Made by a program: the position numbers and the translations under genes. Positions 8,473-64,000 of a DNA stretch of 64,000 nt are shown in pieces. Location of the stretch: assembly GCA_947568835.1 (NCBI GenBank), contig OX387610.1:17035050-17099049 (forward strand), given 5' to 3'. Numbering within the stretch: the stretch's first letter is position 1; every line of letters begins with the position of its first letter. The DNA is from Protonemura montana (Eukaryota; Arthropoda; Insecta; Plecoptera; Nemouridae). The notes beneath the pieces were generated by a model. The model worked only from the letters and a program-made list of their open reading frames with translations. It was not told the origin of the DNA and did not search any database.

Positions 8473-11082
8473 CCAGACGCTCCAGACACTCTGCCATGCT
8501 AGCCAGACGCTGCAGACACTCTGCCTCACTAGCAAAAAGCTCCAGACACTCTGCATCGCTACCCAGGCGCTCCAGACGCTTTGCTTTAATATTTTAATGC
8601 TTTAAACACTCTGCTACGCTAGCCAGTGGCTCCAGACACTCTGCCACGCTAGCTTGACGCTCCAGGCACTCTGCCTCGCTATTTAGACGCTCCAGAAACT
8701 CTGCCTCGCTAGCCAGGCACTCCAGACACTCTGGCTCGCTACCAGGACGCTTCAGACACTCTGCCTTCCTAGCCAGCCGCTCCAGTCACTCTGCCATGCT
8801 AGCCAGAGATTTCAGACACTCTGCTACGCTAGCTAGACGCTCCAGACACTCTGCCACGCTAGCTAGAAGCTCCAGACTTTCTGCCTTGCTACTTAGACCC
8901 TCCAGACACTCTGCCTCGCTAGCCAGGCGCTCCAGACACTCTGCCTCGCTACCCAGACGCTCCAGACTATCTGCCACGCTAGCCAGTGGCTCCAGAATAT
9001 TTGCCACGCTAGCCAGAGGCTCCAGACACTCTGCCACGCTAGCTAGACGCTTCAGACACTCTGCATCGCTAACCAGGCGCTCCAGACACTCTGCCTCGCT
9101 ATCCAGACGATCCAGACACTTTGCCTCGCTACCCAGACGCTCCGGAGATTCTGCCTCGCTAGCCAGACGCTCAAGACACTCTGCCTCGCTAGCTAGACGC
9201 TCTAGACACTCTGCCATGCTAACCAGACGCCCTAGACTATCTGCCACGCTAGCCATAGGCTCCAGACACTCTGCCACGCTAGCAAGAAGCTCCAGTTACT
9301 CTACCATGCTAGCTAGACGCTCCAGACACACTGCCTCGACAGCCAAGCGCTCCAGACACTCTGGCTCGCTACCCAGACGCTCCAGACACTCTGCCTCGCT
9401 AGCTAGGCGCTCCAGACACTCTGCTTCGCTACCCAGACGCTCCAGGCACTCTGCCTCGCCAGCAAGTTACTTTAGACACTCTGTTTCGCTAGCTAGACGG
9501 TCCAGACACTCAGCCATGCTAGCCAGACGCTCCAGGTACTCTGCCTTGCTACCCAGACGCTCCAGACACACTGCCTCGCTTGCCAGGCGCTCAAAACACT
9601 CTGCCACGCTAGCAAGACGCTCCAGACACTCTGCCACGCTAGCCAGACGCTCCAGACACTCTGCCACGCTAGCAAGACGCTCCAGACACTCTGCCTCGCT
9701 ACCCAGACGCTCAAGAGACTCTGCCTCGCTAGCCAGGCGCTTTAGACACTCTGCCTCGCTAGCTAGACGCTCCAGACACTCTACCATGCTAGCCAGACGC
9801 TATAGACTATCCGCCACGCTAGCCATAGGCTCCAGACACTCTGCCACGCTAGCAAGACGCTCCAGACACTCAGCCACGCTCGCCAGACGCTCCAGACACT
9901 CTGCCTCGCTATTCAGACGCTCCAGTTACTCTACCATGCTAGCTAGACGCTCCAGACACTCTGCCTCGCTAGCCAGGCGCTCCAGACACTCTGCCTCGCT
10001 ACCCAGACGCTCCAGACTCTCTGTCTTGCTACCCAGGCGCTCCAGAAACTCTGCCTCGCTACCCAGACGCTCCAGACACTCTGCTACGCTAGCTAGACGC
10101 TCCAGACACTCTGCTTCGCTAGCTAGACGCTCCAGACACTCTGCCTTGCTACCCAGACCCTCCAGACACTCTGCCTCGCTAGCCAGGCGCTCCAGACACG
10201 CTGCCTCGCTACCCAGACGCTCCAGACTATCTGCCACGCTAGCCAGTGGCTCCAGATTATCTGCCACGCTAGCCTGAGGCTCCAGACACTCTGCCACGCT
10301 AGCAAGACGCTCCAGACACTCTGCCTCGCTAGCCAGGCGCTCCAGACACTCTGCCTTGCTACCCAAAATCTCCAGACACTCTGCCTCGCTAGCCAGCCGC
10401 TCCAGACACTCTGCCATGCTAGCCAGAGATTTCAGACACTCTGCTACGCTAGCTAGACGCTCTAGACACTCTGCCACGCTATCTTGACGCTCCAGACACT
10501 CTGCCTTGCTACTAAGACCCTCCAGACACTCTGCCTCGCTAGCCAGGCGCTCCAGACACTCTGCCTCGCTACCCAGACGCTCTAGACACTCTGCCTCGCT
10601 AGCCAGCCGCTCCAGACACTCTGCCATGCCAGCCAGACGTTTCAGACTTACTGCCACGCTAGCCAGAGGTTTCAGACACTCTGCTACGCTAGCTAGACTC
10701 TCCAGACTCTCTGCCTCGCTAGCTAGATGCTCCAGACACTCTGCCTAGCTACCCACACCCTCCAGACACTCTACCTCGCTAGCCAGGCGCTCCAGACACG
10801 CTGCCTCGCTACCCAGACGCTCCAGACTATCTGCCACGCTAGCCAGTGGCTCCAGATTATCTGCCACGCTAGCCAGAGGCTCCAGACACTCTGCTACGCT
10901 AGCTAGACGCTCCAGACACTCTGCCACGCTAGCCAGCCGCTCCAGATACTCTGCCATGCTAGCCAGACGTTTCAGACTTACTGCCACGCTAGCAAGACGC
11001 TCCAGACACTCTGCCACGCTAGTCAGACGCTCCAGACACTCTGCCTCGCTAGCAAGACGCTCCAGAATTTCTGCTTAACTAT
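8473..11082 (+). repeat. Higher-order block, 2,610 bp (87 monomers)
   Basis: The same opening monomers (ATCCAGACGC, then GCCATGC, then block A) recur at 11083 and 15163, which defines this block. Block A lies at about 8577-8615. It includes monomers with AGATTTCAG, AATATTTGCC and TACTTTAGACACTCTG. In this block and its 39672 copy, one ordinary monomer reads CTTTCTGCC (8877). No length deviation from 30 bp was found inside it. Confidence 0.8.
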
Positions 11083-11956
11083 CCAGACGCTCCAGACACT
11101 CTGCCATGCTAGCCAGACGCTGCAGACACTCTGCCTCACTAGCAAAAAGCTCCAGACACTCTGCATCGCTACCCAGGCGCTCCAGACGCTTTGCTTTAAT
11201 ATTTTAATGCTTTAAACACTCTGTTTCGCTAGCCAGTGGCTCCAGACACTCTGCCACGCTAGCTTGACGCTCCAGGCACTCTGCCTCGCTATTTAGACGC
11301 TCCAGAAACTCTGCCTCGCTAGCCAGGCACTCCAGACACTCTGGCTCGCTACCAGGACGCTTCAGACACTCTGCCTTCCTAGCCAGCCGCTCCAGTCACT
11401 CTGCCATGCTAGCCAGAGATTTCAGACACTCTGCTACGCTAGCTTGACGCTCCAGACACTCTGCCACGCTAGCTAGAAGCTCCAGACACTCTGCCTTGCT
11501 ACTTAGACCCTCCGGACACTCTGCCTCGCTAGCCAGGCGCTCCAGACACTCTGCCTCGCTACCCAGACGCTCCAGACTATCTGCCACGCTAGCCAGTGGC
11601 TCCAGAATATTTGCCACGCTAGCCAGAGGCTCCAGACACTCTGCCACGCTAGCTAGACGCTTCAGACACTCTGCATCGCTAACCAGGCGCTCCAGACACT
11701 CTGCCTCGCTATCCAGACGCTCCAGACACTCTGCCTCGCTACCCAGACGCTCCAGACACTCTGCCTCCCTAGCCAGCCGCTCCAGACACTCTGCCATGCT
11801 AGCCAGAGATTTCAGACACTCTGCTACGCTAGCTAGACGCTCCAGACACTCTGCCACGCTAGCTAGACGCTCCAGACACTCTGCCTTGCTACCCAGACCC
11901 TCCAGACACTCTGCCCCGCTAGCCAGGCGCTCCAGACACTCTGCCTCGCTACCCAG

Positions 11957-13126
11957 ACGCTCCAGAAACTCTGCCACGCTAGCCAGACGATCCAGACACT
12001 TTGCCTCGCTACCCAGACGCTCCGGAGATTCTGCCTCGCTAGCCAGACGCTCAAGACACTCTGCCTCGCTAGCTAGACGCTCTAGACACTCTGCCATGCT
12101 AACCAGAAGCCCTAGACTATCTGCCACGCTAGCCATAGGCTCCAGACACTCTGCCACGCTAGCAAGAAGCTCCAGTTACTCTACCATGCTAGCTAGACGC
12201 TCCAGACACACTGCCTCGCCAGCCAGGCGCTCCAGACACTCTGGCTCGCTACCCAGACGCTCCAGACACTCTGCCTCGCTAGCTAGGCGCTCCAGACACT
12301 CTGCCTCGCTACCCAGACGCTCCAGGCACTCTGCCTCGCCAGCAAGTTACTTTAGACACTCTGTTTCGCTAGCTAGACGGTCCAGACACTCAGCCATGCT
12401 AGCCAGACGCTCCAGGTACTCTGCCTTGCTACCCAGACGCTCCAGACACACTGCCTCGCTTGCCAGGCGCTCAAAACACTCTGCCACGCTAGCAAGACGC
12501 TCCAGACACTCTGCCACGCTAGCCAGACGCTCCAGACACTCTGCCACGCTAGCAAGACGCTCCAGACACTCTGCCTCGCTACCCAGACGCTCAAGAGACT
12601 CTGCCTCGCTAGCCAGGCGCTTTAGACACTCTGCCTCGCTAGCTAGACGCTTTAGACACTCTGCCTCGCTAGCTAGACGCTCCAGACACTCTACCATGCT
12701 AGCCAGACGCTATAGACTATCCGCCACGCTAGCCATAGGCTCCAGACACTCTGCCACGCTAGCAAGACGCTCCAGACACTCAGCCACGCTCGCCAGACGC
12801 TCCAGACACTCTGCCTCGCTATTCAGACGCTCCAGTTACTCTACCATGCTAGCTAGACGCTCCAGACACTCTGCCTCGCTAGCCAGGCGCTCCAGACACT
12901 CTGCCTCGCTACCCAGACGCTCCAGACTCTCTGTCTTGCTACCCAGGCGCTCCAGAAACTCTGCCTCGCTACCCAGACGCTCCAGACACTCTGCTACGCT
13001 AGCTAGACGCTCCAGACACTCTGCTTCGCTAGCTAGACGCTCCAGACACTCTGCCTTGCTACCCAGACCCTCCAGACACTCTGCCTCGCTAGCCAGGCGC
13101 TCCAGACACGCTGCCTCGCTACCCAG
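11957..13126 (+). repeat. 1,170-bp tandem duplication, copy 1
   Basis: This 39-monomer segment is repeated immediately downstream at an offset of exactly 1,170 bp. It includes the monomers with GACGATCC, CTCCGGAGATT, TTACTTTAG and CTCAAAACACTCTG in the same order. The edges are placed by where the two copies stop agreeing and are uncertain by about one monomer. The copies differ slightly, for example in CAGAAGCCC (12105-12113) against CAGACGCCC one offset later. Confidence 0.85.
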
Positions 13127-14296
13127 ACGCTCCAGAAACTCTGCCACGCTAGCCAGACGATCCAGACACTTTGCCTCGCTACCCAGACGCTCCGGAGATT
13201 CTGCCTCGCTAGCCAGACGCTCAAGACACTCTGCCTCGCTAGCTAGACGCTCTAGACACTCTGCCATGCTAACCAGACGCCCTAGACTATCTGCCACGCT
13301 AGCCATAGGCTCCAGACACTCTGCCACGCTAGCAAGAAGCTCCAGTTACTCTACCATGCTAGCTAGACGCTCCAGACACACTGCCTCGCCAGCCAGGCGC
13401 TCCAGACACTCTGGCTCGCTACCCAGACGCTCCAGACACTCTGCCTCGCTAGCTAGGCGCTCCAGACACTCTGCCTCGCTACCCAGACGCTCCAGGCACT
13501 CTGCCTCGCCAGCAAGTTACTTTAGACACTCTGTTTCGCTAGCTAGACGGTCCAGACACTCAGCCATGCTAGCCAGACGCTCCAGGTACTCTGCCTTGCT
13601 ACCCAGACGCTCCAGACACACTGCCTCGCTTGCCAGGCGCTCAAAACACTCTGCCACGCTAGCAAGACGCTCCAGACACTCTGCCACGCTAGCCAGACGC
13701 TCCAGACACTCTGCCACGCTAGCAAGACGCTCCAGACACTCTGCCTCGCTACCCAGACGCTCAAGAGACTCTGCCTCGCTAGCCAGGCGCTTTAGACACT
13801 CTGCCTCGCTAGCTAGACGCTTTAGACACTCTGCCTCGCTGGCTAGACGCTCCAGACACTCTACCATGCTAGCCAGACGCTATAGACTATCCGCCACGCT
13901 AGCCATAGGCTCCAGACACTCTGCCACGCTAGCAAGACGCTCCAGACACTCAGCCACGCTCGCCAGACGCTCCAGACACTCTGCCTCGCTATTCAGACGC
14001 TCCAGTTACTCTACCATGCTAGCTAGACGCTCCAGACACTCTGCCTCGCTAGCCAGGCGCTCCAGACACTCTGCCTCGCTACCCAGACGCTCCAGACTCT
14101 CTGTCTTGCTACCCAGGCGCTCCAGAAACTCTGCCTCGCTACCCAGACGCTCCAGACACTCTGCTACGCTAGCTAGACGCTCCAGACACTCTGCTTCGCT
14201 AGCTAGACGCTCCAGACACTCTGCCTTGCTACCCAGACCCTCCAGACACTCTGCCTCGCTAGCCAGGCGCTCCAGACACGCTGCCTCGCTACCCAG
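13127..14296 (+). repeat. 1,170-bp tandem duplication, copy 2
   Basis: Second copy of the 39-monomer segment. It ends where the array changes from the CTCCAGAAACTC type to the CTCCAGACTATC type. The pair is present again at about 43156-44325 and 44326-45495 in the second 31-kb copy, so this duplication is older than the 31-kb one. Confidence 0.85.
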
Positions 14297-15162
14297 ACGC
14301 TCCAGACTATCTGCCACGCTAGCCAGTGGCTCCAGATTATCTGCCACGCTAGCCAGAGGCTCCAGACACTCTGCCACGCTAGCAAGACGCTCCAGACACT
14401 CTGCCTCGCTAGCCAGGCGCTCCAGACACTCTGCCTTGCTACCCAAAATCTCCAGACACTCTGCCTCGCTAGCCAGCCGCTCCAGACACTCTGCCATGCT
14501 AGCCAGAGATTTCAGACACTCTGCTACGCTAGCTAGACGCTCCAGACACTCTGCCACGCTATCTTGACGCTCCAGACACTCTGCCTTGCTACTAAGACCC
14601 TCCAGACACTCTGCCTCGCTAGCCAGGCGCTCCAGACACTCTGCCTCGCAACCCAGACGCTCTAGACACTCTGCCTCGCTAGCCAGCCGCTCCAGACACT
14701 CTGCCATGCCAGCCAGACGTTTCAGACTAACTGCCACGCTAGCCAGAGGTTTCAGACACTCTGCTACGCTAGCTAGACTCTCCAGACTCTCTGCCTCGCT
14801 AGCTAGATGCTCCAGACACTCTGCCTAGCTACCCACACCCTCCAGACACTCTACCTCGCTAGTCAGGCGCTCCAGACACGCTGCCTCGCTACCCAGACGC
14901 TCCAGACTATCTGCCACGCTAGCCAGTGGCTCCAGATTATCTGCCACGCTAGCCAGAGGCTCCAGACACTCTGCTACGCTAGCTAGACGCTCCAGACACT
15001 CTGCCACGCTAGCCAGCCGCTCCAGATACTCTGCCATGCTAGCCAGACGTTTCAGACTTACTGCCACGCTAGCAAGACGCTCCAGACACTCTGCCACGCT
15101 AGTCAGACGCTCCAGACACTCTGCCTCGCTAGCAAGACGCTCCAGAATTTCTGCTTAACTAT

Positions 15163-17536
15163 CCAGACGCTCCACACACTCTGCCATGCTAGCCAGACGC
15201 TGCAGACACTCTGCCTCACTAGCAAAAAGCTCCAGACACTCTGCATCGCTACCCAGGCGCTCCAGACGCTTTGCTTTAATATTTTAATGCTTTAAACACT
15301 CTGTTTCGCTAGCCAGTGGCTCCAGACACTCTGCCACGCTAGCTTGACGCTCCAGGCACTCTGCCTCGCTATTTAGACGCTCCAGAAACTCTGCCTCGCT
15401 AGCTAGGCACTCCAGACACTCTGGCTCGCTACCAGGACGCTCCAGACACTCTGCCTTCCTAGCCAGCCGCTCCAGACACTCTGCCATGCTAGCCAGAGAT
15501 TTCAGACACTCTGCTACGCTAGATAGACGCTCCAGACACTCTGCCACGCTAGCTAAAAGCTCCAGACACTCTGCCTTGCTACTTAGACCCTCCAGACACT
15601 CTGCCTCGCTAGCCAGGCGCTCCAGACACTCTGCCTCGCTACCCAGACGCTCTAGACACTCTGCCTCGCTAGCCAGCCGCTCCAGACACTCTGCCATGAT
15701 AGCCAGACGTTTCAGACTTACTGCCACGCTAGCCAGAGGTTTCAGACACTCTGCTACGCTAGCTAGACTCTCCAGACTCTCTGCCTCGCTAGCTAGATGC
15801 TCCAGACACTCTGCCTTGCTACCCAGACCCTCCAGACACTCTACCTCGCTAGCCAGGCGCTCCAGACACGCTGCCTCGCTACCCAGACGCTCCAGACTAT
15901 CTGCCACGCTAGCCAGTGGCTCCAGATTATCTGCCACGCTAGCCAGAGGCTCCAGACACTCTGCTACGCTAGCTAGACGCTCCAGACACTCTGCCACGCT
16001 AGCCAGCCGCTCCAGACACTCTGCCTTGCTACCCAGACCCTCCAGACACTCTGCCATGCTAGCCAGAGATTTCAGACACTCTGCTACGCTAGCTAGACGC
16101 TCCAGACACTCTGCCACGCTAGCTAGAAGCTCCAGACACTCTGCCTTGCTACTTAGACCCTCCAGACACTCTGCCTCGCTAGCTAGGCGCTCCAGACACT
16201 CTGCCTCGCTACCCAGACGCTCCAGACTATCTGCCACGCTAGCCTGTGGCTCCAGAATATTTGCCACGCTAGCCAGAGGCTCCAGACACTCTGCCACGCT
16301 AGCAAGACGCTCCAGACACTCTGCATCGCTAACCAGGCGCTCCAGACACTCTGCCTCGCTATCCAGTCGCTCCAGACACTCTGCCTCGCTACCCAGACGC
16401 TCCAGACACTCTGCCTCCCTAGCCAGCCGCTCCAGACACTCTGCCATGCTAGCCAGAGATTTCAGACACTCTGCTACGCTAGCTAGACGCTCCAGACACT
16501 CTGCCACGCTAGCTAGACGCTCCAGACACTCTGCCTTGCTACCCAGACCCTCCAGACACTCTGCCCCGCTAGCCAGGCGCTCCAGACACTCTGCCTCGCT
16601 ACCCAGACGCTCCAGAAACTCTGCCACGCTAGCCAGACGATCCAGACACTTTGCCTCGCTACCCAGACGCTCCGGAGACTCTGCCTCGCTACCCAGACGC
16701 TCCAGAAACTCTGCCACGCTAGCCAGACGATCCAGACACTTTGCCTCGCTACCCAGACGCTCCGGAGACTCTGCCTCGCTAGCCAGACGCTCTAGACACT
16801 CTGCCATGCTAACTAGACGCCCTAGACTATCTGCCACGCTAGCCATAGGCTCCAGACACTCTGCCACGCTAGCAAGACGCTCCAGTTACTCTACCATGCT
16901 AGCTAGACGCTCCAGACACACTGCCTCGCCAGCCAGGCGCTCCAGACACTCTGGCTCGCTACCCAGATGCTCCAGACACTCTGCCTCGCTAGCTAGGCGC
17001 TCCAGACACTCTGCCTCGCTACCCAGACGCTCCAGGCACTCTGCCTCGCCAGCAAGTTACTTTAGACACTCTGTTTCGCTAGCTAGACGGTCCAGACACT
17101 CAGCCATGCTAGCCAGACGCTCCAGGTACTCTGCCTTGCTACCCAGACGCTCCAGACACACTGCCTCGCTTGCCAGGCGCTCAAAACACTCTGCCACGCT
17201 AGCAAGACGCTCCAGACACTCTGCCACGCTAGCCAGACGCTCCAGACACTCTGCCACGCTAGCAAGACGCTCCAGACACTCTGCCTCGCTACCCAGACGC
17301 TCAAGAGACTCTGCCTCGCAAGCCAGGCGCTTTAGACACTCTGCCTCGCTAGCTAGACGCTCCAGACACTCTACCATGCTAGCCAGACGCTATAGACTAT
17401 CCGCCACGCTAGTCATAGGCTCCAGACACTCTGCCACGCTAGCAAGACGCTCCAGACACTCAGCCACGCTCGCCAGACGCTCCAGACACTCTGCCTCGCT
17501 ATTCAGACGCTCCAGTTACTCTACCATGCTAGCTAG
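15163..17536 (+). repeat. Higher-order block left of the insertion
   Basis: It opens with the same monomers as 8473 and 11083, but with CTCCACACACTC at 15170-15181 in place of CTCCAGACACTC. Block A is at about 15267-15305. It is cut at 17536 by the AT-rich insertion. A 90-bp duplication lies inside it (16591-16770). Both strands have long open stretches here (plus 15486-17597, minus 16867-15284), again built only of the repeat decapeptides. Confidence 0.8.
16591..16770 (+). repeat. 90-bp (3-monomer) perfect tandem duplication
   Basis: Positions 16591-16680 and 16681-16770 are identical. Each holds three monomers marked by CTCCAGAAACTC, GACGATCC and CTCCGGAGACTC. Other parts of the array carry this triplet once (for example 11941-12030, with GGAGATTC). 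It is present at 47790-47969 in the second 31-kb copy. Confidence 0.93.
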
Positions 17537-17777
17537 TTTTACACTTATTAATATTATTATGATCACTGCTTTTATTATTTGTTACCATTATAATTGACAT
17601 GCATTATTATTATTATTATTTTTTCCTTTTCTATTTCCATAAGAAGTTATTATTCATTTTTTTTTTTTTTTTCATATTTTTATATCTTATAATATAGTAT
17701 AGTCTGTACATTCCTCTGTATTACAACAGAGTAGGAATTCCTAGACTTAAATAATAAATAAATAAATAAATAAATAG
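17537..17777 (+). mobile_element. 241-bp AT-rich insertion, likely 3' end of a non-LTR retroposon (LINE or SINE), copy 1
   Basis: This is the only stretch type not built from the 30-bp monomer. It interrupts a monomer between CTAGCTAG and ACGCTCC. The same monomers run uninterrupted at 9946/9947, 12856/12857 and 14026/14027, which gives the exact edges. It contains an ATT run (17603-17620), 16 T residues (17657-17672), a hairpin with stem CTCTGT/ACAGAG (17714-17731), the 12-bp palindrome TAGGAATTCCTA (17732-17743) and a tail of AAAT repeats to the end. A short stem followed by a microsatellite tail is usual at the 3' ends of CR1/L2- or RTE-like LINEs and the SINEs that use them. The shared flank is only TAG, so there is at most a 3-bp target duplication. 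No coding part remains; the family is inferred. Confidence 0.6.
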
Positions 17778-19139
17778 ACGCTCCAGACACTCTGCCTCGC
17801 TAGCCAGGCGCTCCAGACACTCTGCCTCGCTACCCAGACGCTCCAGACTCTCTGTCTTGCTACCCAGGCGCTCCAGACACTCTGCCTCGCTACCCAGACG
17901 CTCCAGACACTCTGCTACGCTAGCTAGACGCTCCAGACACTCTGTCTTGCTATCCAGACGCTCCAGACCCTCTGCTTTGCTAGCCAGGCGCTCCAGACAC
18001 TCTGATTCGCTACACAGACGCTCCAGTCACTTTGCCTCGCTACTTAGACACACCAGACACTCTGCTTCGCTAGCTAGACGCTCCAGACACTCTGCCTTGC
18101 TACTCAGACCCTCCAGACACTCTGCCTCGCTAGCCAGGCGCTCCAGACACGCTGCCTCGCTACCCAGACGCTCCAGACTATCTGCCACGCTAGCCAGTGG
18201 CTCCAGATTATCTGCCACGCTAGCCAGAGGCTCCAGACACTCTGCAACGCTAGCAAGACGCTCCAGACACTCTGCCTCGCTAGCCAGGCGCTCCAGACAC
18301 TCTGCCTTGCTACCCAAAGTCTCCAGACACTCTGCCTCGCTAGCCAGCCGCTCCAGACACTCTGCCATGCTAGCCAGAGATTTCAGACACTCTGCTACGC
18401 TAGCTAGACGCTCCAGACACTCTGCCACGCTATCTTGACGCTCCAGACACTCTGCCTTGCTACTAAGACCCTCCAGACACTCTGCCTCGCTAGCCAGGCG
18501 CTCCAGACACTCTGCCTCGCTACCCAGACGCTCTAGACACTCTGCCTCGCTAGCCAGCCGCTCCAGACACTCTGCCATGACAGCCAGACGTTTCAGACTT
18601 ACTGCCACGCTAGCCAGAGGTTTCAGACACTCTGCTACGCTAGCTAGACTCTCCAGACTCTCTGCCTCGCTAGCTAGATGCTCCAGACACTCTGCCTTGC
18701 TACCCAGACCCTCCAGACACTCTACCTCGCTAGCCAGGCGCTCCAGACACGCTGCCTCGCTACCCAGACGCTCCAGACTATCTGCCACGCTAGCCAGTGG
18801 CTCCAGATTATCTGCCACGCTAGCCAGAGGCTCCAGACACTCTGCTACGCTAGCTAGACGCTCCAGACACTCTGCCACGCTAGCCAGCCGCTCCAGACAC
18901 TCTGCCATGCTAGCCCGACGTTTCAGACTTACTGCCACGCGAGCCAGAGGTTTCAGACACTCTGCTACGCTAGCTAGACTCTCCAGACTCTCTGCCTCGC
19001 TAGCTAGACGCTCCAGACACTCTGCCTTGCTACCCAGACCCTCCAGACACTCTGCCTCGCTAGCCAGGCGCTCCAGACACGCTGCCTCGCTACCCAGACG
19101 CTCCAGTTTCTCTGTCTTGCTAGCTAGTCGCTCTAGACA
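17778..19139 (+). repeat. Array segment right of the insertion
   Basis: Ordinary monomers resume one base out of the earlier 30-bp register because the insert is 241 bp long. The first monomers continue those cut at 17536. Later ones include the GATTCGCTAC, ACTTAGACACACC and ACCCAAAGTCTCC types. The segment ends where the first full marker block C of the downstream series begins. Confidence 0.8.
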
Positions 19140-19962
19140 CTAAGCCTCGGTAAAAAGACACTCCAGACACTTTTCCCCGCTTGCCAGACTCTCCAGACAG
19201 TCTGCCTTAGAAGCAAGACGCTCCAGACATTCTGCCTCACTTGCTAGACGCTCTAAACACTCTGTCTTAGAAGCAAGACGCTCCAGACACCCTGTCTCGC
19301 TTGCCAGACGCTCCAAACACTCTGTCTTAGAAGCAAGACGCTCCAGACACCCTGTTTGGCATGCCTGACGCTCCAGATACTCTGCTTTGCTTGCCAGACG
19401 CTCCAGACACTCTACCACGCTAGCCAGAAGCTACAGACACTCTACTTTGCTAGGAAGACGCTTTAGACACTCTACCTCGGTAATAAAACGCTCCAGAAAC
19501 TCTGCCTCGCTTGCAAGACGCTCCAGACTATCTGCCTTCCTAGCCAGACTCTTCAGAAGCTCTGCCATGCTAGCAATTCGCTCCAGACACTTTGCCTCAC
19601 TAGCAAGAAGCTCCAGGCACTCTGCTTTGCTTGCCAGACGCTCCAGACACTCATCCATGCTAGCCAGACGCTCCAGACACGCTGCCTCGCTAAAAAGACG
19701 CTTCAGACACTCTGCCTCGCTAAAAAGACGCTCTAGACACTCTGCTTTGCTAGCAAGACGTTTCAGACACTCTTCCTCGCTAGCTAGACGCCCCAGACAC
19801 TCTGCCTTGGAAGTAAGATGATCCAGACTATCTGCCACGCTAGCTAGACGCTCCAGACACTCTGCATTGGTAGTTAGATGCTCCAGACTATCTGCCACGC
19901 TAGCTAGACGCTCCAGACACTCTGCCTCGCTACCCAGACGCTCCAGAAACTCTGCCTCGCTA

Positions 19963-50338: not shown

Positions 50339-53300
50339 CTAAGCCTCGGTAAAAAGACACTCCAGACACTTTTCCCCGCTTGCCAGACTCTCCAGACAGT
50401 CTGCCTTAGAAGCAAGACGCTCCAGACATTCTGCCTCACTTGCTAGACGCTCTAAACACTCTGTCTTAGAAGCAAGACGCTCCAGACACCCTGTCTCGCT
50501 TGCCAGACGCTCCAAACACTCTGTCTTAGAAGCAAGACGCTCCAGACACCCTGTTTGGCATGCCTGACGCTCCAGATACTCTGCTTTGCTTGCCAGACGC
50601 TCCAGACACTCTACCACGCTAGCCAGAAGCTACAGACACTCTACTTTGCTAGGAAGACGCTTTAGACACTCTACCTCGGTAATAAAACGCTCCAGAAACT
50701 CTGCCTCGCTTGCAAGACGCTCCAGACTATCTGCCTTCCTAGCCAGACTCTTCAGAAGCTCTGCCATGCTAGCAATTCGCTCCAGACACTTTGCCTCACT
50801 AGCAAGAAGCTCCAGGCACTCTGCTTTGCTTGCCAGACGCTCCAGACACTCATCCATGCTAGCCAGACGCTCCAGACACGCTGCCTCGCTAAAAAGACGC
50901 TTCAGACACTCTGCCTCGCTAAAAAGACGCTCTAGACACTCTGCTTTGCTAGCAAGACGTTTCAGACACTCTTCCTCGCTAGCTAGACGCCCCAGACACT
51001 CTGCCTTGGAAGTAAGATGATCCAGACTATCTGCCACGCTAGCTAGACGCTCCAGACACTCTGCATTGGTAGTTAGATGCTCCAGACTATCTGCCACGCT
51101 AGCTAGACGCTCCAGACACTCTGCCTCGCTACCCAGACGCTCCAGAAACTCTGCCTCGCTAGATTGGCGTCAGATACTTTGCCTTGCTAGACAGACGCTC
51201 CATACACTCTCGTTTTATTGCAAATCGCTTCAGACACTTTGCCTCGGTAATAACACGCACAAGAAACTCTGCCTCGCTAGCAAGACGCTCCAGACACGCT
51301 GCCTCGCTACCCAGACGCTCCAGACTATCTGCCACGCTAGCCAGTGGCTCCAGATTATCTGCCACGCTAGCCAGAGGCTCCAGACACTCTGCCACGCTAG
51401 CAAGACGCTCCAGGCACTCTGCCTCGCTAGCCAGGCGCTCCAGACACTCTGCCTTGCTACCCAAAATCTCCAGACACTCTGCCTCGCTAGCCAGCCGCTC
51501 CAGACACTCTGCCATGCTAGCCAGAGATTTCAGACACTCTGCTACGCTAGCTAGACGCTCCAGACACTCTGCCACGCTATCTTGACGCTCCAGACACTCT
51601 GCCTTGCTACTAAGACCCTCCAGACACTCTGCCTCGCTAGCCAGGCGCTCCAGACACTCTGCCTCGCTAGCCAGCCGCTCCAGACACTCTGCCATGCTAG
51701 CCAGAGATTTCAGACACTCTGCTACGCTAGCTAGACGCTCCAGACACTCTGCCACGCTATCTTGACGCTCCAGACACTCTGCCTTGCTACTAAGACCCTC
51801 CAGACACTCTGCCTCGCTAGCCAGGCGCTCCAGACACTCTGCCTCGCTACCCAGACGCTCTAGACACTCTGCCTCGCTAGCCAGCCGCTCCAGACACTCT
51901 GCCATGACAGCCAGACGTTTCAGACTTACTGCCACGCTAGCCAGAGGTTTCAGACACTCTGCTACGCTAGCTAGACTCTCCAGACTCTCTGCCTCGCTAG
52001 CTAGATGCTCCAGACACTCTGCCTTGCTACCCAGACCCTCCAGACACTCTACCTCGCTAGCCAGGCGCTCCAGACACGCTGCCTCGCTACCCAGACGCTC
52101 CAGACTATCTGCCACGCTAGCCAGTGGCTCCAGATTATCTGCCACGCTAGCCAGAGGCTCCAGACACTCTGCTACGCTAGCTAGACGCTCCAGACACTCT
52201 GCCACGCTAGCCAGCCGCTCCAGACACTCTGCCATGCTAGCCCGACGTTTCAGACTTACTGCCACGCGAGCCAGAGGTTTCAGACACTCTGCTACGCTAG
52301 CTAGACTCTCCAGACTCTCTGCCTCGCTAGCTAGACGCTCCAGACACTCTGCCTTGCTACCCAGACCCTCCAGACACTCTGCCTCGCTAGCCAGGCGCTC
52401 CAGACACGCTGCCTCGCTACCCAGACGCTCCAGTTTCTCTGTCTTGCTAGCTAGTCGCTCTAGACACTAAGCCTCGGTAAAAAGACACTCCAGACACTTT
52501 TCCCCGCTTGCCAGACTCTCCAGACAGTCTGCCTTAGAAGCAAGACGCTCCAGACATTCTGCCTCACTTGCTAGACGCTCTAAACACTCTGTCTTAGAAG
52601 CAAGACGCTCCAGACACCCTGTCTCGCTTGCCAGACGCTCCAAACACTCTGTCTTAGAAGCAAGACGCTCCAGACACCCTGTTTGGCATGCCTGACGCTC
52701 CAGATACTCTGCTTTGCTTGCCAGACGCTCCAGACACTCTACCACGCTAGCCAGAAGCTACAGACACTCTACTTTGCTAGGAAGACGCTTTAGACACTCT
52801 ACCTCGGTAATAAAACGCTCCAGAAACTCTGCCTCGCTTGCAAGACGCTCCAGACTATCTGCCTTCCTAGCCAGACTCTTCAGAAGCTCTGCCATGCTAG
52901 CAATTCGCTCCAGACACTTTGCCTCACTAGCAAGAAGCTCCAGGCACTCTGCTTTGCTTGCCAGACGCTCCAGACACTCATCCATGCTAGCCAGACGCTC
53001 CAGACACGCTGCCTCGCTAAAAAGACGCTTCAGACACTCTGCCTCGCTAAAAAGACGCTCTAGACACTCTGCTTTGCTAGCAAGACGTTTCAGACACTCT
53101 TCCTCGCTAGCTAGACGCCCCAGACACTCTGCCTTGGAAGTAAGATGATCCAGACTATCTGCCACGCTAGCTAGACGCTCCAGACACTCTGCATTGGTAG
53201 TTAGATGCTCCAGACTATCTGCCACGCTAGCTAGACGCTCCAGACACTCTGCCTCGCTACCCAGACGCTCCAGAAACTCTGCCTCGCTAGATTGGCGTCA

Positions 53301-54414
53301 GATACTTTGCCTTGCTAGACAGACGCTCCATACACTCTCGTTTTATTGCAAATCGCTTCAGACACTTTGCCTCGGTAATAACACGCACAAGAAACTCTGC
53401 CTCGCTAGCAAGACGCTCCAGACACGCTGCCTCGCTACCCAGACGCTCCAGACTATCTGCCACGCTAGCCAGTGGCTCCAGATTATCTGCCACGCTAGCC
53501 AGAGGCTCCAGACACTCTGCCACGCTAGCAAGACGCTCCAGACACTCTGCCTCGCTAGCCAGGCGCTCCAGACACTCTGCCTTGCTACCCAAAATCTCCA
53601 GACACTCTGCCTCGCTAGCCAGCCGCTCCAGACACTCTGCCATGCTAGCCAGAGATTTCAGACACTCTGCTACGCTAGCTAGACGCTCCAGACACTCTGC
53701 CACGCTATCTTGACGCTCCAGACACTCTGCCTTGCTACTAAGACCCTCCAGACACTCTGCCTCGCTAGCCAGGCGCTCCAGACACTCTGCCTCGCTACCC
53801 AGACGCTCTAGACACTCTGCCTCGCTAGCCAGCCGCTCCAGACACTCTGCCATGACAGCCAGACGTTTCAGACTTACTGCCACGCTAGCCAGAGGTTTCA
53901 GACACTCTGCTACGCTAGCTAGACTCTCCAGACTCTCTGCCTCGCTAGCTAGATGCTCCAGACACTCTGCCTTGCTACCCAGACCCTCCAGACACTCTAC
54001 CTCGCTAGCCAGGCGCTCCAGACACGCTGCCTCGCTACCCAGACGCTCCAGACTATCTGCCACGCTAGCCAGTGGCTCCAGATTATCTGCCACGCTAGCC
54101 AGAGGCTCCAGACACTCTGCTACGCTAGCTAGACGCTCCAGACACTCTGCCACGCTAGCCAGCCGCTCCAGACACTCTGCCATGCTAGCCCGACGTTTCA
54201 GACTTACTGCCACGCGAGCCAGAGGTTTCAGACACTCTGCTACGCTAGCTAGACTCTCCAGACTCTCTGCCTCGCTAGCTAGACGCTCCAGACACTCTGC
54301 CTTGCTACCCAGACCCTCCAGACACTCTGCCTCGCTAGCCAGGCGCTCCAGACACGCTGCCTCGCTACCCAGACGCTCCAGACTCTCTGTCTTGCTAGCT
54401 AGTCGCTCTAGACA
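50339..54414 (+). repeat. Copy-2 counterparts of the 2,128-bp and 1,948-bp units
   Basis: The two units lie at 50339-52466 and 52467-54414. The first keeps the 180-bp duplication (51480-51839). Block C starts at 50339 and 52467; block B starts at 51162 and 53290. Confidence 0.85.
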
Positions 54415-57400
54415 CTAAGCCTCGGTAAAAAGACACTCCAGACACTTTTCCCCGCTTGCCAGACTCTCCAGACAGTCTGCCTTAGAAGCAAGACGCTCCA
54501 GACATTCTGCCTCACTTGCTAGACGCTCTAAACACTCTGTCTTAGAAGCAAGACGCTCCAGAAACCCTGTCTCGCTTGCGAGACGCTCCAAACACTCTGT
54601 CTTAGAAGCAAGACGCTCCAGACACCCTGTTTGGCATGCCTGACGCTCCAGATACTCTGCTTTGCTTGCCAGACGCTCCAGACACTCTACCACGCTAGCC
54701 AGAAGCTACAGACACTCTACTTTGCTAGGAAGACGCTTTAGACACTCTACCTCGGTAATAAAACGCTCCAGAAACTCTGCCTCGCTTGCAAGACGCTCCA
54801 GACTATCTGCCTTCCTAGCCAGACTCTTCAGAAGCTCTGCCATGCTAGCAATTCGCTCCAGACACTTTGCCTCACTAGCAAGAAGCTCCAGGCACTCTGC
54901 TTTGCTTGCCAGACGCTCCAGACACTCATCCATGCTAGCCAGACGCTCCAGACACGCTGCCTCGCTAAAAAGACGCTTCAGACACTCTGCCTCGCTAAAA
55001 AGACGCTCTAGACACTCTGCTTTGCTAGCAAGACGTTTCAGACACTCTTCCTCGCTAGCTAGACGCCCCAGACACTCTGCCTTGGAAGTAAGATGATCCA
55101 GACTATCTGCCACGCTAGCTAGACGCTCCAGACACTCTGCATTGGTAGTTAGATGCTCCAGACTATCTGCCACGCTAGCTAGACGCTCCAGACACTCTGC
55201 CTCGCTACCCAGACGCTCCAGAAACTCTGCCTCGCTAGATTGGCGTCAGATACTTTGCCTTGCTAGACAGACGCTCTATACACTCTCGTTTTATTGCAAA
55301 TCGCTTCAGACACTTTGCCTCGGTAATAACACGCACAAGAAACTCTGCCTCGCTAGCAAGACGCTCCAGACACTCTGCCACGCTAGTCAGACGCTCCAGA
55401 CACTCTGCCTCGCTAGCAAGACGCTCCAGAATTTCTGCTTAACTATCCAGACGCTCCAGACACTCTGCCATGCTAGCCAGACGCTGCAGACACTCTGCCT
55501 CACTAGCAAAAAGCTCCAGACACTCTGCATCGCTACCCAGGCGCTCCAGACGCTTTGCTTTAATATTTTATGCTACGCTAGCCAGTGGCTCCAGACACTC
55601 TGCCACGCTAGCTTGACGCTCTAGGCACTCTGCCTCGCTATTTAGTAGCTCCAGAAACTCTGCCTCGCTAGCCAGGCACTCCAGACACTCTGGCTCGCTA
55701 CCAGGACGCTCCAGACACTCTGCCTTCCTAGCCAGCCGCTCCAGACACTCTGCCATGCTAGCCAGAGATTTCAGACACTCTGCTACGCTAGCTAGACGCT
55801 CCAGACACTCTGCCACGCTAGCTAGAAGCTCCAGACACTCTGCCTTGCTACTTAGACCCTTCAGACACTCTGCCTCGCTAGCCAGGCGCTCCAGACACTC
55901 TGCCTCGCTACCCAGACGCTCCAGACTATCTGCCACGCTAGCCAGTGGCTCCAGAATATTTGCCACGCTAGCCAGAGGCTCCAGACACTCTGCCACGCTA
56001 GCTGGACGCTCCAGACACTCTGCATCGCTAACCAGGCGCTCCAGACACTCTGCCTCGCTATCCAGACGCTCCAGACACTCTGCCTCGCTACCCAGACGCT
56101 CCAGACACTCTGCCTCCCTAGCCAGCCGCTCCAGACACTCTGCCATGCTAGCCAGAGATTTCAGACACTCTGCTACGCTAGCTAGACGCTCCAGACACTC
56201 TGCCACGCTAGCTAGACGCTCTAGACACTCTGCCTTGCTACCCAGACCCTCCAGACACTCTGCCCCGCTAGCTAGGCGCTCCAGACACTCTGCCTCGCTA
56301 CCCAGACGCTCCAGACACTCTGCCTCGCTAGCGAGGCATTCCAGACACTCTGGTTCGCTACTCAGACGCTCCAGACACTCTGCCACGCTAGCTAGACGCT
56401 CCAGACACTCTGCCACGCTAGACAGACGCTCCAGACACTCTGATTCGCTACCCAGACGTTCCAGACACTTTCCCTCGCTCCCCAGACGCTCCAGACACTC
56501 TGCTTTGCTAGCCAGCCGCTTTAGACACTCTGCCACGCTAGCCAAACGCTCCAGACACTTTGCTACGCTAGCCAGACGCTCCAGACACTCTGATTCGCTA
56601 CCCAGACGTTCCAGACACTTTGCCTTGCCACCCAGACGCTCCAGACACTCTGCCTCGCTAGCCAGGCGCTTCAGAAGCTCTGCCTCGCTAGCCAGGCGCT
56701 CCAGACACTCTGCCATGCTAGCCAGACGTTCCAGACACACTGCCTCGCTTGCCAGGCACTCAAAACACTCTGACTCGCTAGCCAGGCGCTCCATACCTTC
56801 TTCCTTGCTAGCCTTTCGTTCCAGACTTTCTGCCTCGCTAGCAAGACGCTCAAGACACAAACTGCCTCGCTTGCCAGGCGCTCCAGACACTCTGCCTCGC
56901 TACCCAGACGCTCCAGACACTTTGCCTCGCTATCCAGACGCTCCAGAGACTCTGCCTCGCTAGCCAGGCGCTTCAGACACTCTGCCTCGCTAGCTAGACG
57001 CTCCAGACACTCTGCCATGCTAGCCAGACGCTATAGACTATATGCCACGCTAGCCAGTGGCTCCAGACTATCTGCCACGCTAGCCAGAGGCTCCAGACAC
57101 TCTGCCATGCTAGCCAGACGCTTCAGACTTTCTGCCACGCTAGCCAAACGCTCCAGACACTCTGCCACGCTAGCCAGACGCTCCAGACACTCTGATTCGC
57201 TACCTAGACGTTCCAGACACTTTGCCTTGCTACTGAGACGCTCCAGACTATCTGCCACGCTAGCCAGTGGCTCCAGATTATCTGCCACGTTAGCCAGAGG
57301 CTCCAGACACTCTGCCACGCTAGCAAGACGCTCCAGACACTCTGCCTCGCTAGCCAGGCGCTCCAGACACTCTGCCTTGCTACCCAAAATCTCCAGACAC

Positions 57401-57939
57401 TCTGCCTCGCTAGCCAGCCGCTCCAGACACTCTGCCATGCTAGCCAGAGATTTCAGACACTCTGCCTCGCTAGCCAGGCGCTCCAGACACTCTGCCTCGC
57501 TACCCAGACGCTCTAGACACTCTGCCTCGCTAGCCAGCCGCTCCAGACACTCTGCCATGACAGCCAGACGTTTCAGACTTACTGCCACGCTAGCCAGAGG
57601 TTTCAGACACTCTGCTACGCTAGCTAGACTCTCCAGACTCTCTGCCTTGCTAGCTAGATGCTCCAGACACTCTGCCTTGCTACCCAGACCCTCCAGACAC
57701 TCTACCTCGCTAGCCAGGCGCTCCAGACACGCTGCCTCGCTACCCAGACGCTCCAGACTATCTGCCACGCTAGCCAGTGGCTCCAGATTATCTGCCACGC
57801 TAGCCAGAGGCTCCAGACACTCTGCTACGCTAGCTAGACGCTCCAGACACTCTGCCTCGCTAGCCAGGCGCTCCAGACACGCTGCCTCGCTACCCAGACG
57901 CTTTAGACTCTCTGTCTTGCTAGCTAGTCGCTCTAGACA
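54415..57939 (+). repeat. Copy-2 counterpart of the 3,525-bp unit
   Basis: Block B starts at 55238. The 15-bp loss in block A (near 55569) and the 2-bp gain (near 56859) are both retained, so these indels predate the 31-kb duplication. Confidence 0.85.
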
Positions 57940-60547
57940 CTAAGCCTCGGTAAAAAGACACTCCAGACACTTTTCCCCGCTTGCCAGACTCTCCAGACAG
58001 TCTGCCTTAGAAGCAAGACGCTCCAGACATTCTGCCTCACTTGCTTGACGCTCTAAACACTCTGTCTTAGAAGCAAGACGCTCCAGACACCCTGTCTCGC
58101 TTGCCAGACGCTCCAAACACTCTGTCTTAGAAGCAAGACGCTCCAGACACCCTGTTTGGCATGCCTGACGCTCCAGATACTCTGCTTTGCTTGCCAGACG
58201 CTCCAGACACTCTACCACGCTAGCCAGAAGCTACAGACACTCTACTTTGCTAGGAAGACGCTTTAGACACTCTACCTCGGTAATAAAACGCTCCAGAAAC
58301 TCTGCCTCGCTTGCAAGACGCTCCAGACTATCTGCCTTCCTAGCCAGACTCTTCAGAAGCTCTGCCATGCTAGCAATTCGCTCCAGACACTTTGCCTCAC
58401 TAGCAAGAAGCTCCAGGCACTCTGCTTTGCTTGCCAGACGCTCCAGACACTCATCCATGCTAGCCAGACGCTCCAGACACGCTGCCTCGCTAAAAAGACG
58501 CTTCAGACACTCTGCCTCGCTAACAAGACGCTCTAGACACTCTGCTTTGCTAGCAAGACGTTTCAGACACTCTTCCTCGCTAGCTAGACGCCCCAGACAC
58601 TCTGCCTTGGAAGTAAGATGCTCCAGACTATCTGCCACGCTAGCTAGACGCTCCAGACACTTTGCATTGGTAGTTAGATGCTCCAGACTATCTGCCACGC
58701 TAGCTAGACGCTCCAGACACTCTGCCTCGCTACCCAGACGCTCCAGAAACTCTGCCTCGCTAGATTGGCGTCAGACACTTTGCCTTGCTAGACAGACGCT
58801 CCATACACTCTCGTTTTATTGCAAATCGCTTCAGACACTTTGCCTCGGTAATAACACGCTCAAAAAACTCTGCCTCGCTAGCAAGACGCTCCAGACACTC
58901 TGCTTAACTATCCAGACGCTCCAGACACTCTGCCATGCTAGCCAGACGCTGCAGACACTCTGCCTCACTAGCAAAAAGCTCCAGACACTCTGCATCGCTA
59001 CCCAGGCGCTCCAGACGCTTTGCTTTAATATTTTAATGCTTTAAACACTCTGCTACGCTAGCCAGTGGCTCCAGACACTCTGCCACGCTAGCTTGACGCT
59101 CTAGGCACTCTGCCTCGTTATTTAGACGCTCCAGAAACTCTGCCTCGCTAGCCAGGCACCCTAGACACTCTGGCTCGCTACCAGGACGCTCCAGACACTC
59201 TGCCTTCCTAGCCAGCCGCTCCAGACACTCTGCCATGCTAGCCAGAGATTTCAGACACTCTGCTACGCTAGCTAGACGCTCCAGACACTCTGCCACGCTA
59301 GCTAGAAGCTCCAGACACTCTGCCTTGCTACTTAGACCCTTCAGACACTCTGCCTCGCTAGCCAGGCGCTCCAGACACTCTGCCTCGCTACCCAGACGCT
59401 CCAGACTATCTGCCACGCTAGCCAGTGGCTCCAGAATATTTGCCACGCTAGCCAGAGGCTCCAGACACTCTGCCACGCTAGCTAGACGCTCCAGACACTC
59501 TGCATCGCTAACCAGGCGCTCCAGACACTCTGCCTCGCTATCCAGACGCTCCAGACACTCTGCCTCGCTACCCAGACGCTCCAGACACTCTGCCTCCCTA
59601 GCCAGCCACTCCAGACACTCTGCCATGCTAGCCAGAGATTTCAGACACTCTGCTACGCTAGCTAGACGCTCCAGACACTCTGCCTTGCTACCCAGACCCT
59701 CCAGACACTCTACCCCGCTAGCCAGGCGCTCCAGACACTCTGCCTCGCTACCCAGACGCTCCAGACACTCTGCCTCGCTAGCCAGGCGCTCCAGACACTC
59801 TGCCTCGCTACCTAGACGCTTCAGACTATCTGCCACGCTAGCCAGTTGCTCCAGACACTCTGCCACGCTAGCTAGACGCTCCAGGCACTCTGCCTCGCTA
59901 CTAAGACGCTCCAGACACTCTGCCTCGCTAGCGAGGCATTCCAGCCACTCTGGTTCGCTACTCAGACGCTCCAGACACTCTGCCACGCTAGCTAGACGCT
60001 CCAGACACTCTGCCACGCTAGCCAGACGCTCCAGACACTCTGATTCGCTACCCAGACGTTCCAGACACTTTCCCCCGCTCCCCAGACGCTCCAGACACTC
60101 TGCCTCGCTAGCCAGCCGCTTTAGACACTCTGCCTCGCTAGCTAGACGCTCCAGACACTCTACCATGCTAGCCAGACGCTATAGACTATCCGCCACGCTA
60201 GCCATAGGCTCCAGACACTCTGCCACGCTAGCAAGACGCTCCAGACACTCAGCTACGCTCGCCGGACGCTCCAGACACTCTGCCTCGCTATTCAGACGCT
60301 CCAGTTACTCTACCATGCTAGCTAGACTCTCCAGACACTCTGCCTCGCTAGCCAGGCGCTCCAGACACTCTGCCTCGCTACCCAGACGCCCCAGACACTC
60401 TGCTACGCTAGCTAGACGCTCCAGACACTCTGTCTTGCTACCCAGACGCTCCAGACACTCTGCTACGCTAGCTAGACGCTCCAGACACTCTGTCTTGCTA
60501 CCCAGACGCTCCAGACTCTCTGTCTTGCTAGCTAGTCGCTCTAGACA
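57940..60547 (+). repeat. Copy-2 counterpart of the 2,608-bp unit
   Basis: Block C is at 57940-58218, block B starts at 58763 and block A is near 59016-59054. The order is the same as at 26741-29348. Confidence 0.85.
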
Positions 60548-63500
60548 CTAAGCCTCGGTAAAAAGACACTCCAGACACTTTTCCCCGCTTGCCAGACTCC
60601 TCAGACAGTCTGCCTTAGAAGCAAGATGCTCCAGACATTCTGCCTCACTTGCTAGACGCTCTAAACACTCTGTCTTAGAAGCAAGACGCTCCAGACACCC
60701 TGTCTCGCTTGCCAGACGCTCCAAACACTCTGTCTTAGAAGCAAGACGCTCCAGACACCCTGTTTGGCATGCCTGACGCTCCAGGCACTCTGCTTTGCTT
60801 GCCAGACGCTCCAGACACTCATCCATGCTAGCCAGACGCTCCAGACACGCTGCCTCGCTAAAAAGACGCTTCAGACACTCTGCCTCGCTAACAAGACGCT
60901 CTAGACACTCTGCTTTGCTAGCAAGACGTTTCAGACACTCTTCCTCGCTAGCTAGACGCCCCAGACACTCTGCCTTGGTAGTAAGATGCTCCAGACTATC
61001 TGCCACGCTAGCTAGACGCTCCAGACACTCTGCATTGGTAGTTAGATGCTCCAGACTATCTGCCACGCTAGCTAGACGCTCCAGACACTCTGCCTTGGTA
61101 GTTAGATGCTCCAGACTATCTGACACGCTAGCTAGACGCTCCAGACACTCTGCCTCGCTACCCAGACGCTCCAGAAACTCTGCATCGCTAGATTGGCGTC
61201 AGACACTTTGCCTTGCTAGACAGACGCTCCATACACTCTCGTTTTATTGCAAATCGCTTCAGACACTTTGCCTCGGTAATATCACGCTCAAGAAACTCTG
61301 CCTCGCTAGCAAGACGCTCCAGACACTCTGCCACGCTAGTCAGACGCTCCAGACACTCTGCCTCGCTAGCAAGACGCTCCAGAATTTCTGCTTAACTATC
61401 CAGACGCTCCAGACACTCTGCCATGCTAGCCAGACGCTGCAGACACTCTGATTCGCTACCCAGACGCTCCAGACACTCTGCTACGCTAGCTAGACGCTCC
61501 AGACACTCTGTCTTGCTACCCAGGCGCTCCAGACACTCTGCCTCGCTACCTAGACGCTCCAGACACTCTGTCTTGCTATCCAGACGCTCCAGACCCTCTG
61601 CTTTGCTAGCCAGGCGCTCCAGACACTCTGATTCGCTACCCAGACGCTCCAGACACTTTTCCCAGCTACTTAGACACACCAGACACTCTGCTTCGCTAGC
61701 TAGACGCTCCAGACACTCTGCCTTGCTACCCAGACCCTCCAGACACTCTGCCTTCCTAGCCGGGTTCTCCAGACACTCTGACATGCTAGCCAGAGATTTC
61801 AGACACTCTGCTACGCTAGCTAGACGCTCCAGACACTCTGCCACGCTAGCAAGACGCTCCAGACACTCTGCCTCGCTACCCAGACGCTCAAGAGACTCTG
61901 CCTCGCAAGCCAGGCGCTTTAGACACTCTGCCTCGCTAGCTAGACGCTCCAGACACTCTACCATGCTAGCCAGACGCTATAGACTATCCGCCACGCTAGC
62001 CATAGGCTCCAGACACTCTGCCACGCTAGCAAGACGCTCCAGACACTCAGCTACGCTCGCCGGACGCTCCAGACACTCTGCCTCGCTATTCAGACGCTCC
62101 AGTTACTCTACCATGCTAGCTAGACTCTCCAGACACTCTGCCTCGCTAGCCAGGCGCTCCAGACACTCTGCCTCGCTACCCAGACGCCCCAGACACTCTG
62201 CTACGCTAGCTAGACGCTCCAGACACTCTGTCTTGCTACCCAGACGCTCCAGACACTCTGCTACGCTAGCTAGACGCTCCAGACACTCTGTCTTGCTACC
62301 CAGACGCTCCAGACTCTCTTTCTTGCTAGCTAGTCGCTCTAGACACTAAGCCTCGGTAAAAAGACACTCCAGACTTTTTTCCCCGCTTGCCAGACTCTCC
62401 AGACCGTCTGCCTTAGAAGCAAGACGCTCCAGACATTCTGCCTCACTTGCTAGACGCTCTAAACACTCAGTCTTAGAAGCAAGACGCTCCAGACACCCTG
62501 TCTCGCTTGCCAGACGCTCCAAACACTCTGTCTTAGAAGCAAGACGATCCAGACACCCTGTTTGGCATGCCTGACGCTCCAGGCACTCTGCTTTGCTTGC
62601 CAGACGCTCCAGACACTCATCCATGCTAGCCAGACGCTCCAGACACGCTGCCTCGCTAAAAAGACGCTTCAGACACTCTGCCTCGCTAACAAGACGTTCT
62701 AGACACTCTGCTTTGCTAGCAAGACGTTTCAGACACTCTTCCTCGCTAGCTAGACGCCCCAGACACTCTGCCTTGGTAGTAAGATGCTCCAGACTATCTG
62801 CCACGCTACCCAGACGCTCCAGAAACTCTGCCTCGCTAGATTGGCGTCAGACACTTTGCCTTGCTAGACAGACGCTCCATACACTCTCGTTTTATTGCAA
62901 ATCGCTTCAGACACTTTGCCTCGGTAATATCACGCTCAAGAAACTCTGCCTCGCTAGCAAGACGCTCCAGACACTCTGCCACGCTAGTCAGACGCTCCAG
63001 ACACTCTGCCTCGCTAGCAAGACGCTCCAGAATTTCTGCTTAACTATCCAGACGCTCCAGACACTCTGCCATGCTAGCCAGACGCTGCAGACACTCTGCC
63101 TCACTAGCAAAAAGCTCCAGACACTCTGTCTTGCTATCCAGACGCTCCAGACCCTCTGCTTCGCTAGCCAGGCGCTCCAGACACTCTGATTCGCTACCCA
63201 GACGCTCCAGACACTCTGCTACGCTAGCTAGACGCTCCAGACACTCTGTCTTGCTACCCAGACGCTCCAGACTATCTGCCACGCTAGCCAGTGGCTCCAG
63301 ATTATCTGCCACGCTAGCCAGAGGCTCCAGACACTCTGCTACGCTAGCTAGACGCTCCAGACACTCTGCCACGCTAGCCAGCCGCTCCAGACACTCTGCC
63401 ATGCTAGCCCGACGTTTCAGACTTACTGCCACGCGAGCCAGAGGTTTCAGACACTCTGCTACGCTAGCTAGACTCTCCAGACTCTCTGCCTCGCTAGCTA

Positions 63501-63633
63501 GACGCTCCAGACACTCTGCCTTGCTACCCAGACCCTCCAGACACTCTGCCTCGCTAGCCAGGCGCTCCAGACACGCTGCCTCGCTACCCAGACGCTCCAG
63601 ACTCTCTGTCTTGCTAGCTAGTCGCTCTAGACA
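60548..63633 (+). repeat. Copy-2 counterparts of the 1,798-bp and 1,288-bp units
   Basis: The units lie at 60548-62345 and 62346-63633. Both carry the 240-bp deletion inside block C. Block B starts at 61191 and 62839. The first has three 60-bp dimers and the second has one, as in the first copy. Confidence 0.85.
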
Positions 63634-64000
63634 CTAAGCCTCGGTAAAAAGACACTCCAGACACTTTTTCCCGCTTGCCAGACTCTCCAGACAGTCTGCC
63701 TTAGAAGCAAGACGCTCCAGACATTCTGCCTCACTTGCTAGACGCTCTAAACACTCTGTCTTAGAAGCAAGACGCTCCAGACACCCTGTCTCGCTTGCCA
63801 GACGCTCCAAACACTCTGTCTTAGAAGCAAGACGCTCCAGACACCCTGTTTGGCATGCCTGACGCTCCAGATACACTGCTTTGCTTGCCAGACGCTCCAG
63901 ACACTCTACCACGCTAGCCAGAAGCTACAGACACTCTACTTTGCTAGGAAGACGCTTTAGACACTCTACCTCGGTAATAAAACGCTCCAGAAACTCTGCC
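63634..64000 (+). repeat. Copy-2 start of the 3,539-bp unit, cut by the window end
   Basis: Block C (63634-63912) and the first GGTAATAAAACG monomers are present, matching 32435-32801. It shares the private CAGATACACTGC change (63868-63879 and 32669-32680) that separates this unit from other block C copies. Confidence 0.85.

Follow-up and report, generated by a model that had tools for sequence, protein, structure and literature searches.

The 64,000-bp window analyzed here (Protonemura montana, contig OX387610.1, numbered C13 in an assembly of 258.5 Mb in 34 contigs; C13:17035050-17099049) lies within a 30-bp satellite array and hosts a 31,199-bp block that is present in two head-to-tail copies, differing at a constant offset of 31,199 bp by two substitutions and no indel. 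Judged from its sequence, this block very probably reflects a genuine event in which ~1,040 satellite monomers were recently duplicated in tandem in a single step. The physical reality of the junction and the direction of the event are what we infer in this interpretation. The window was read together with its flanks (C13:16960000-17218999, 259 kb, containing no N anywhere), and positions beyond its end are given as window equivalents.

1..64000, plus strand: 30-bp satellite array, 2,133 copies according to Tandem Repeats Finder, consensus AGACACTCTGCCTCGCTAGCCAGACGCTCC
8473..39671, plus strand: copy 1 of the unit, ~1,040 monomers of 30 bp, two substitutions and no indel compared with copy 2
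39672..64000, plus strand: part of copy 2 within the window, running on to window-equivalent 70870 (C13:17105919)
8473..8494, plus strand: parental X site, 22 bp of homology at the breakpoint, with which copy 1 also begins; the same 22 bp recur at 39672-39693 and at window-equivalent 70871-70892
39672..39693, plus strand: 22-bp homology at the junction of copy 1 and copy 2, in-phase hybrid monomer; the junction 48-mer occurs once in the assembly

Within the window, 24,329 bp (8473-32801) are comparable at this offset and contain 2 mismatches. A preliminary description had reported a repeat of 8473-32801 starting from 39672, with constant offset, two substitutions and no length change, and its coordinates and numbers proved right; the T run and the TAAA tail of an insert located inside the unit are likewise of unchanged length. 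Addition of the flanking genome extended the self-match to 31,221 bp in total, still with 2 differences, and the unit is therefore 8473-39671 followed by 39672-70870, with 6,870 bp of copy 2 lying outside the window (C13:17099050-17105919). Both edges are abrupt. At the same offset, 17 of the 60 bases upstream of 8473 differ, 39 differences fall within 39694-39845, and 22 bp more agree beyond the end of copy 2 before the self-match drops to background. Two head-to-tail copies, a constant offset and sharp ends, the hallmarks of a tandem duplication, were thus all observed. Chance can be ruled out as the cause of this match, since the next-longest self-matches in the 259 kb are far shorter: 9,351 bp for the longest other chained match at one offset (five copies of 2,323 bp) and 5,976 bp for the longest other two-copy tandem duplication.

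The anatomy of the junction is informative in terms of its origin. The monomer phase is unbroken across 39672, being consensus position 19 from either side, and the junction monomer is a hybrid, its left part reading as the sequence after copy 2 (Y) and its right part as the start of copy 1 (X). Between these two sides lie the 22 bp common to all three places. Exact matching throughout the assembly retrieved the hybrid 48-mer once, the parental Y 48-mer 35 times and the parental X 49-mer nine times (backward-read control patterns: 0 exact matches), thus characterizing the junction as a new hybrid of two common forms, matches to which were located on C5, C6, and C13. As X and Y share exactly 22 bp, the join sits in a short identity and not in a long repeat; the surrounding flanks are 68-94% alike (50-bp bins within 100 bp; 81% and 77% per 100 bp) and soon run out of register.

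A plausible sequence of events would start in a Y-type monomer, at what is now window-equivalent 70871, with a DNA end that was broken or had stalled. Keeping the monomer phase, this end would engage an X-type monomer located one unit upstream, at 8473 of a sister or homologous chromatid. Exchange or replication would then lay the 31.2-kb block down again. One in-phase unequal exchange, or one round of out-of-register break-induced replication, would yield the junction as seen, whereas a misjoin would not normally do so. Reciprocal unequal crossing-over and one-sided break-induced replication cannot be told apart from the sequence. The preliminary description had left the choice between one recent event and the same DNA assembled twice. 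With the junction in phase, unique in the assembly, placed at a 22-bp identity and composed of parental monomers that are present elsewhere, the first of these options is favored and the second loses ground.

The two copies differ solely at 14057/45256 (G/T) and 14729/45928 (A/T). Both sites were compared with related places, namely the best 25 of 8,904 rows for 14057 and the best 25 of 7,493 rows for 14729, both copies being included in each set.

14057..14057, plus strand: variant site with G in copy 1 and T in copy 2 (45256); G in 23 of 23 other places
14729..14729, plus strand: variant site with A in copy 1 and T in copy 2 (45928); T in 23 of 23 other places

On this comparison the T at 45256 in copy 2 and the A at 14729 in copy 1 look derived and private. 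Each copy hence seems to carry one private change, which may be newly mutated, may distinguish haplotypes or may be an error of the consensus. The divergence between the copies amounts to 2/31,221, i.e., 6.4e-5 (95% limits 0.8e-5 to 23e-5). At an insect mutation rate of ~3e-9 per site and generation, this would correspond, roughly, to an age of the order of 10,000 generations.

The array surrounding the block has undergone many comparable duplications. In total, 27 rows of adjacent tandem duplication with an offset of at least 600 were found in the 259 kb, 20 of which were examined, the remaining seven being dropped for repeating an offset; the junction was in phase in all 20. Besides the 31-kb pair, these include 12 two-copy tandem duplications of 0.6-6 kb with up to 100% identity and short overlaps. 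The exact overlap at the 13 two-copy junctions, including that of the 31-kb pair, ranged from -2 to 42 bp with a median of 13 bp, compared with 6 bp among 20,000 in-phase pairs that were drawn at random and had similar flanks (Mann-Whitney p=1.6e-4, the single value of -2 being counted as 0). Left out of this test were the offsets 690 (sharing a breakpoint with 2220) and 3118 (233-bp overlap) as well as 4646, 3585, 2323, 1530, and 3750 (multi-copy or partial multiples).

Comparison with these neighbors also defines in which respect the 31-kb block stands out. The preliminary description, correct as regards the size and youth of the block, had regarded neighboring units as clearly less similar, a statement that could not be maintained, as the pairs at offsets 5963 (1 difference in 5,976), 3746 (1 in 3,759), and 1378 (0 in 1,394) are as alike within error. 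Pooled, the 11 other pairs contain 26 differences in 28,756 bp (16 in 26,827 without offset 1918), and the 31-kb pair shows fewer differences per base than either pool (p=5e-7 and, without offset 1918, p=2e-4), the pool excluding offset 600 (13 differences in 642) and the multi-copy rows. Taken singly, six of these 11 are indistinguishable from the 31-kb pair at 0.05. In respect to length, the block is five times the next-longest two-copy duplication and an outlier on a log scale (z ~4.6 relative to 17 other offsets in this region), in a post hoc comparison in which some offsets overlap and 4646 and 690 were not entered. The assessment of size covers these 259 kb, and larger events are possible on C5 and C6, which were only sampled. 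The attribute exceptional, also assigned in the preliminary description, therefore holds for length and, in the pooled data only, for differences per base; it does not hold for the kind of event, the junction anatomy of the neighbors being the same. The block is the largest of many like copies nearby and, as a single event, ordinary satellite turnover that is remarkable for its size. Two smaller duplications occur inside both copies and are therefore older than the 31-kb event:

18321..22576, plus strand: older nested tandem duplication in copy 1, offset 2128; image in copy 2 from 49520
11941..14280, plus strand: older nested tandem duplication in copy 1, offset 1170; image in copy 2 from 43140

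The junctions also leave room for a broader but less probable reading, according to which this satellite would grow mainly via short-homology, phase-locked template switching in blocks of 0.6-31 kb, with one event adding more than 1,000 monomers. The perfect identity at the breakpoints is 0-42 bp (mostly 10-27 bp) and lies between stretches that are mostly 70-85% alike. Ordinary homologous recombination is usually taken to require more identity than this.

Several observations weigh against a single real duplication and have to be considered alongside the above. The opposite hybrid, expected at a reciprocal deletion junction and apt to distinguish crossing-over from one-sided copying, had 0 exact matches in the assembly; a reciprocal exchange would be compatible with this, since its deletion product would pass to the other chromatid and segregate away. 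The variant sites are 672 bp apart, a mild cluster given that two random sites in 31 kb fall this close in ~4% of cases, and consensus errors could yield two differences in 31 kb. The events behind the tests of phase and overlap are not all independent. Finally, the two copies do not differ over 24,964 bp of the unit, so that shorter reads could not reveal the copy number.

This last point leads to the rival that survives best, although we consider it rather unlikely: the junction is real while copy number or setting is otherwise, i.e., more than two copies are collapsed, or the junction stems from extrachromosomal circles of the unit or from a single haplotype. It overlaps with the favored explanation as to how the junction arose. 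By reasoning, a circle of the unit would bear the identical junction, and further copies would hide from shorter reads in the identical stretch; the private base in each copy, however, fits at least two versions of the unit, and circles are not called for by the sequence.

Less probable still is an assembly artefact, in which the assembler placed a single 31-kb stretch twice in a row, be it identical DNA or the versions of the two haplotypes. The very high identity of the copies and the end of C13 inside the array are compatible with such an error, the two differences may be haplotype differences or errors, and false duplications are described as a common assembly error, with one type having about read length (PMC8081667). 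The junction itself argues in the opposite direction. With no N in the 259 kb, neither a gap nor an arbitrary phase was encountered there. By reasoning, if arbitrary ends were misjoined, the phase would be kept in ~1/30 of cases; of those in phase, ~1/20 would share at least 22 bp (5.1% of random in-phase pairs). Moreover, misjoins caused by repeats depend on long shared stretches, while the exact identity of the parental sites is limited to 22 bp, and the smaller duplications nearby show equal anatomy. Gene conversion having made two old, diverged copies nearly identical is highly improbable, since non-allelic conversion, as reported for Arabidopsis centromere satellites, involves tracts shorter than one monomer in the account given there (PMC12321929) and would here have to cover 31 kb without an indel, the block ends are sharp and lie at 22 bp of homology, and the sole sign of patches of differing divergence is the pair of differences 672 bp apart. 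A real single-step duplication thus remains the favored explanation.

The insert shared by both copies allowed the array to be related to other parts of the genome.

17537..17775, plus strand: insert in copy 1, 239 bp, AT-rich, splitting a monomer and containing a T run and a TAAA-rich tail; relatives occur on 11 numbered contigs
48736..48974, plus strand: identical insert in copy 2, 239 bp

The window has exactly two sites each for EcoRI, NsiI and BclI, located in the insert and 31,199 bp apart. The insert belongs to a dispersed element, matching in all 40 places scored (40 of 50 candidates were scored) on these 11 contigs. Five relatives are located at or beside satellite (two on C13, two on C6 at a distance of 68,634 bp, and one on C5), four of them being identical and one a base longer. 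Relatives outside the satellite are dispersed and show 95-99% identity; the insert may be a short retroposon that is truncated or was active until recently. One of the C6 places matches the window along 3,401 bp with 99.94% identity, hence blocks of the array are common to several contigs. The order of X forms, first insert and Y forms is the same on C5:20067075-20198192, C6:196577-430537, and C13:17004768-17141681, with a second insert located among the Y forms on C6 and C13. Shared order and near-identical blocks on the three contigs suggest, at the level of sequence comparison, that long blocks may have been exchanged between chromosomes.

The two insert-bearing places on C6 (C6:262405-266755 and C6:331039-335390) are 99.8% alike over 3,401 bp. 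An intact 68.6-kb tandem duplication, as considered on the basis of hit pairs 68,634-68,635 bp apart, was rejected, because all three inner probe pairs were only ~86% alike and a control pair outside the putative block was, with 94%, above them (the probes tolerate shifts of ~200 bp only). The places are perhaps traces of an older, rearranged large duplication. A reading of C6 as plain haplotype duplicate of another contig was unsupported at the start of C6, the listed non-self matches to its first 900 bases all falling in 1-228 (40 of 354 candidates scored). C6:1-227 belongs to a dispersed element for which 313 matches were counted; many of these form series with a spacing of ~189 bp.

In its wider setting, the array is extensive. 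The whole 259 kb consists of satellite, with a 30-bp self-match of 0.72-0.83 in every 2-kb bin printed. Satellite was also present at nine of nine places sampled outside this region from C13:16.80 Mb to the contig end (17.828 Mb), while three of three places sampled from 16.65 Mb downwards were non-satellite. C13 thus ends inside the array, and none of five telomere motifs tried was found in its last 5 kb. Related arrays exist on C2, C5, and C6. In C2:29217380-29249423 many exact monomer matches, among those listed, are spaced ~1,059 bp apart, and this is a tidier higher-order array than that of the window.

A stop-free stretch of 1,039 codons (window 11448-14564) lies inside the satellite; such long stretches are a by-product of the 30-bp period equaling 10 codons. 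A light test gave no sign of coding, and a coding array was rejected: along the long frame, the consensus base has nearly the same mean share (averaged by hand) at the first, second and third codon positions (0.87, 0.88, and 0.86). No paper came up when fragments of the monomer sequence were searched for in the literature; the organism's own genome paper was not looked for. Elsewhere in the assembly, contig C34 (15,885 bp) carries a COX1 whose frame is open under the invertebrate mitochondrial code, TGA and AGA both being used, the AGA codons presumably at the usual serine places. A COX1 copy scoring equal to that of C34 is located on a 25.9-Mb contig (C4:5760925-5762262) and is either a recent nuclear copy or a misassembly.

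The region provides a snapshot of satellite array growth in which parental sites, hybrid junction and duplicated block are all readable, with about a dozen smaller events of equal junction anatomy alongside the 31-kb one. Such sets of events make it possible to tabulate directly, within one array, how large the duplications are, how much homology they used and how old they are relative to one another, and they bear on the question of crossing-over versus break-induced replication. In comparison with known systems, the adjacent, near-identical blocks resemble assembly false duplications; the latter, as described in PMC8081667, occur near contig boundaries, in gapped scaffolds or between diverged haplotypes, whereas the present pair has no gap and an in-phase hybrid-monomer junction. 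A recent, near-identical expansion inside a satellite array also recalls the saltatory amplification of human alpha-satellite higher-order repeats in the account of PMC11062924, compared with which one extra adjacent copy with one junction is found here. For centromere satellites, break-induced replication is favored in a review (PMC12321929), which cites Showman et al. 2024 for the expansion of human centromeric arrays by this process. As in that case, out-of-register annealing in a satellite can expand an array; the human data, as summarized there, derive from cultured cells with knock-downs, while the process in P. montana is deduced from a junction only. A further parallel is offered by the Arabidopsis mutation-accumulation lines presented in the same review (PMC12321929), in which in-frame satellite indels of 1-31 monomers were observed as new mutations. 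The P. montana block shares with them the precise in-frame insertion of adjacent monomers and differs in scale and in the kind of record, comprising ~1,040 monomers of 30 bp in a single block, as read from one assembly.
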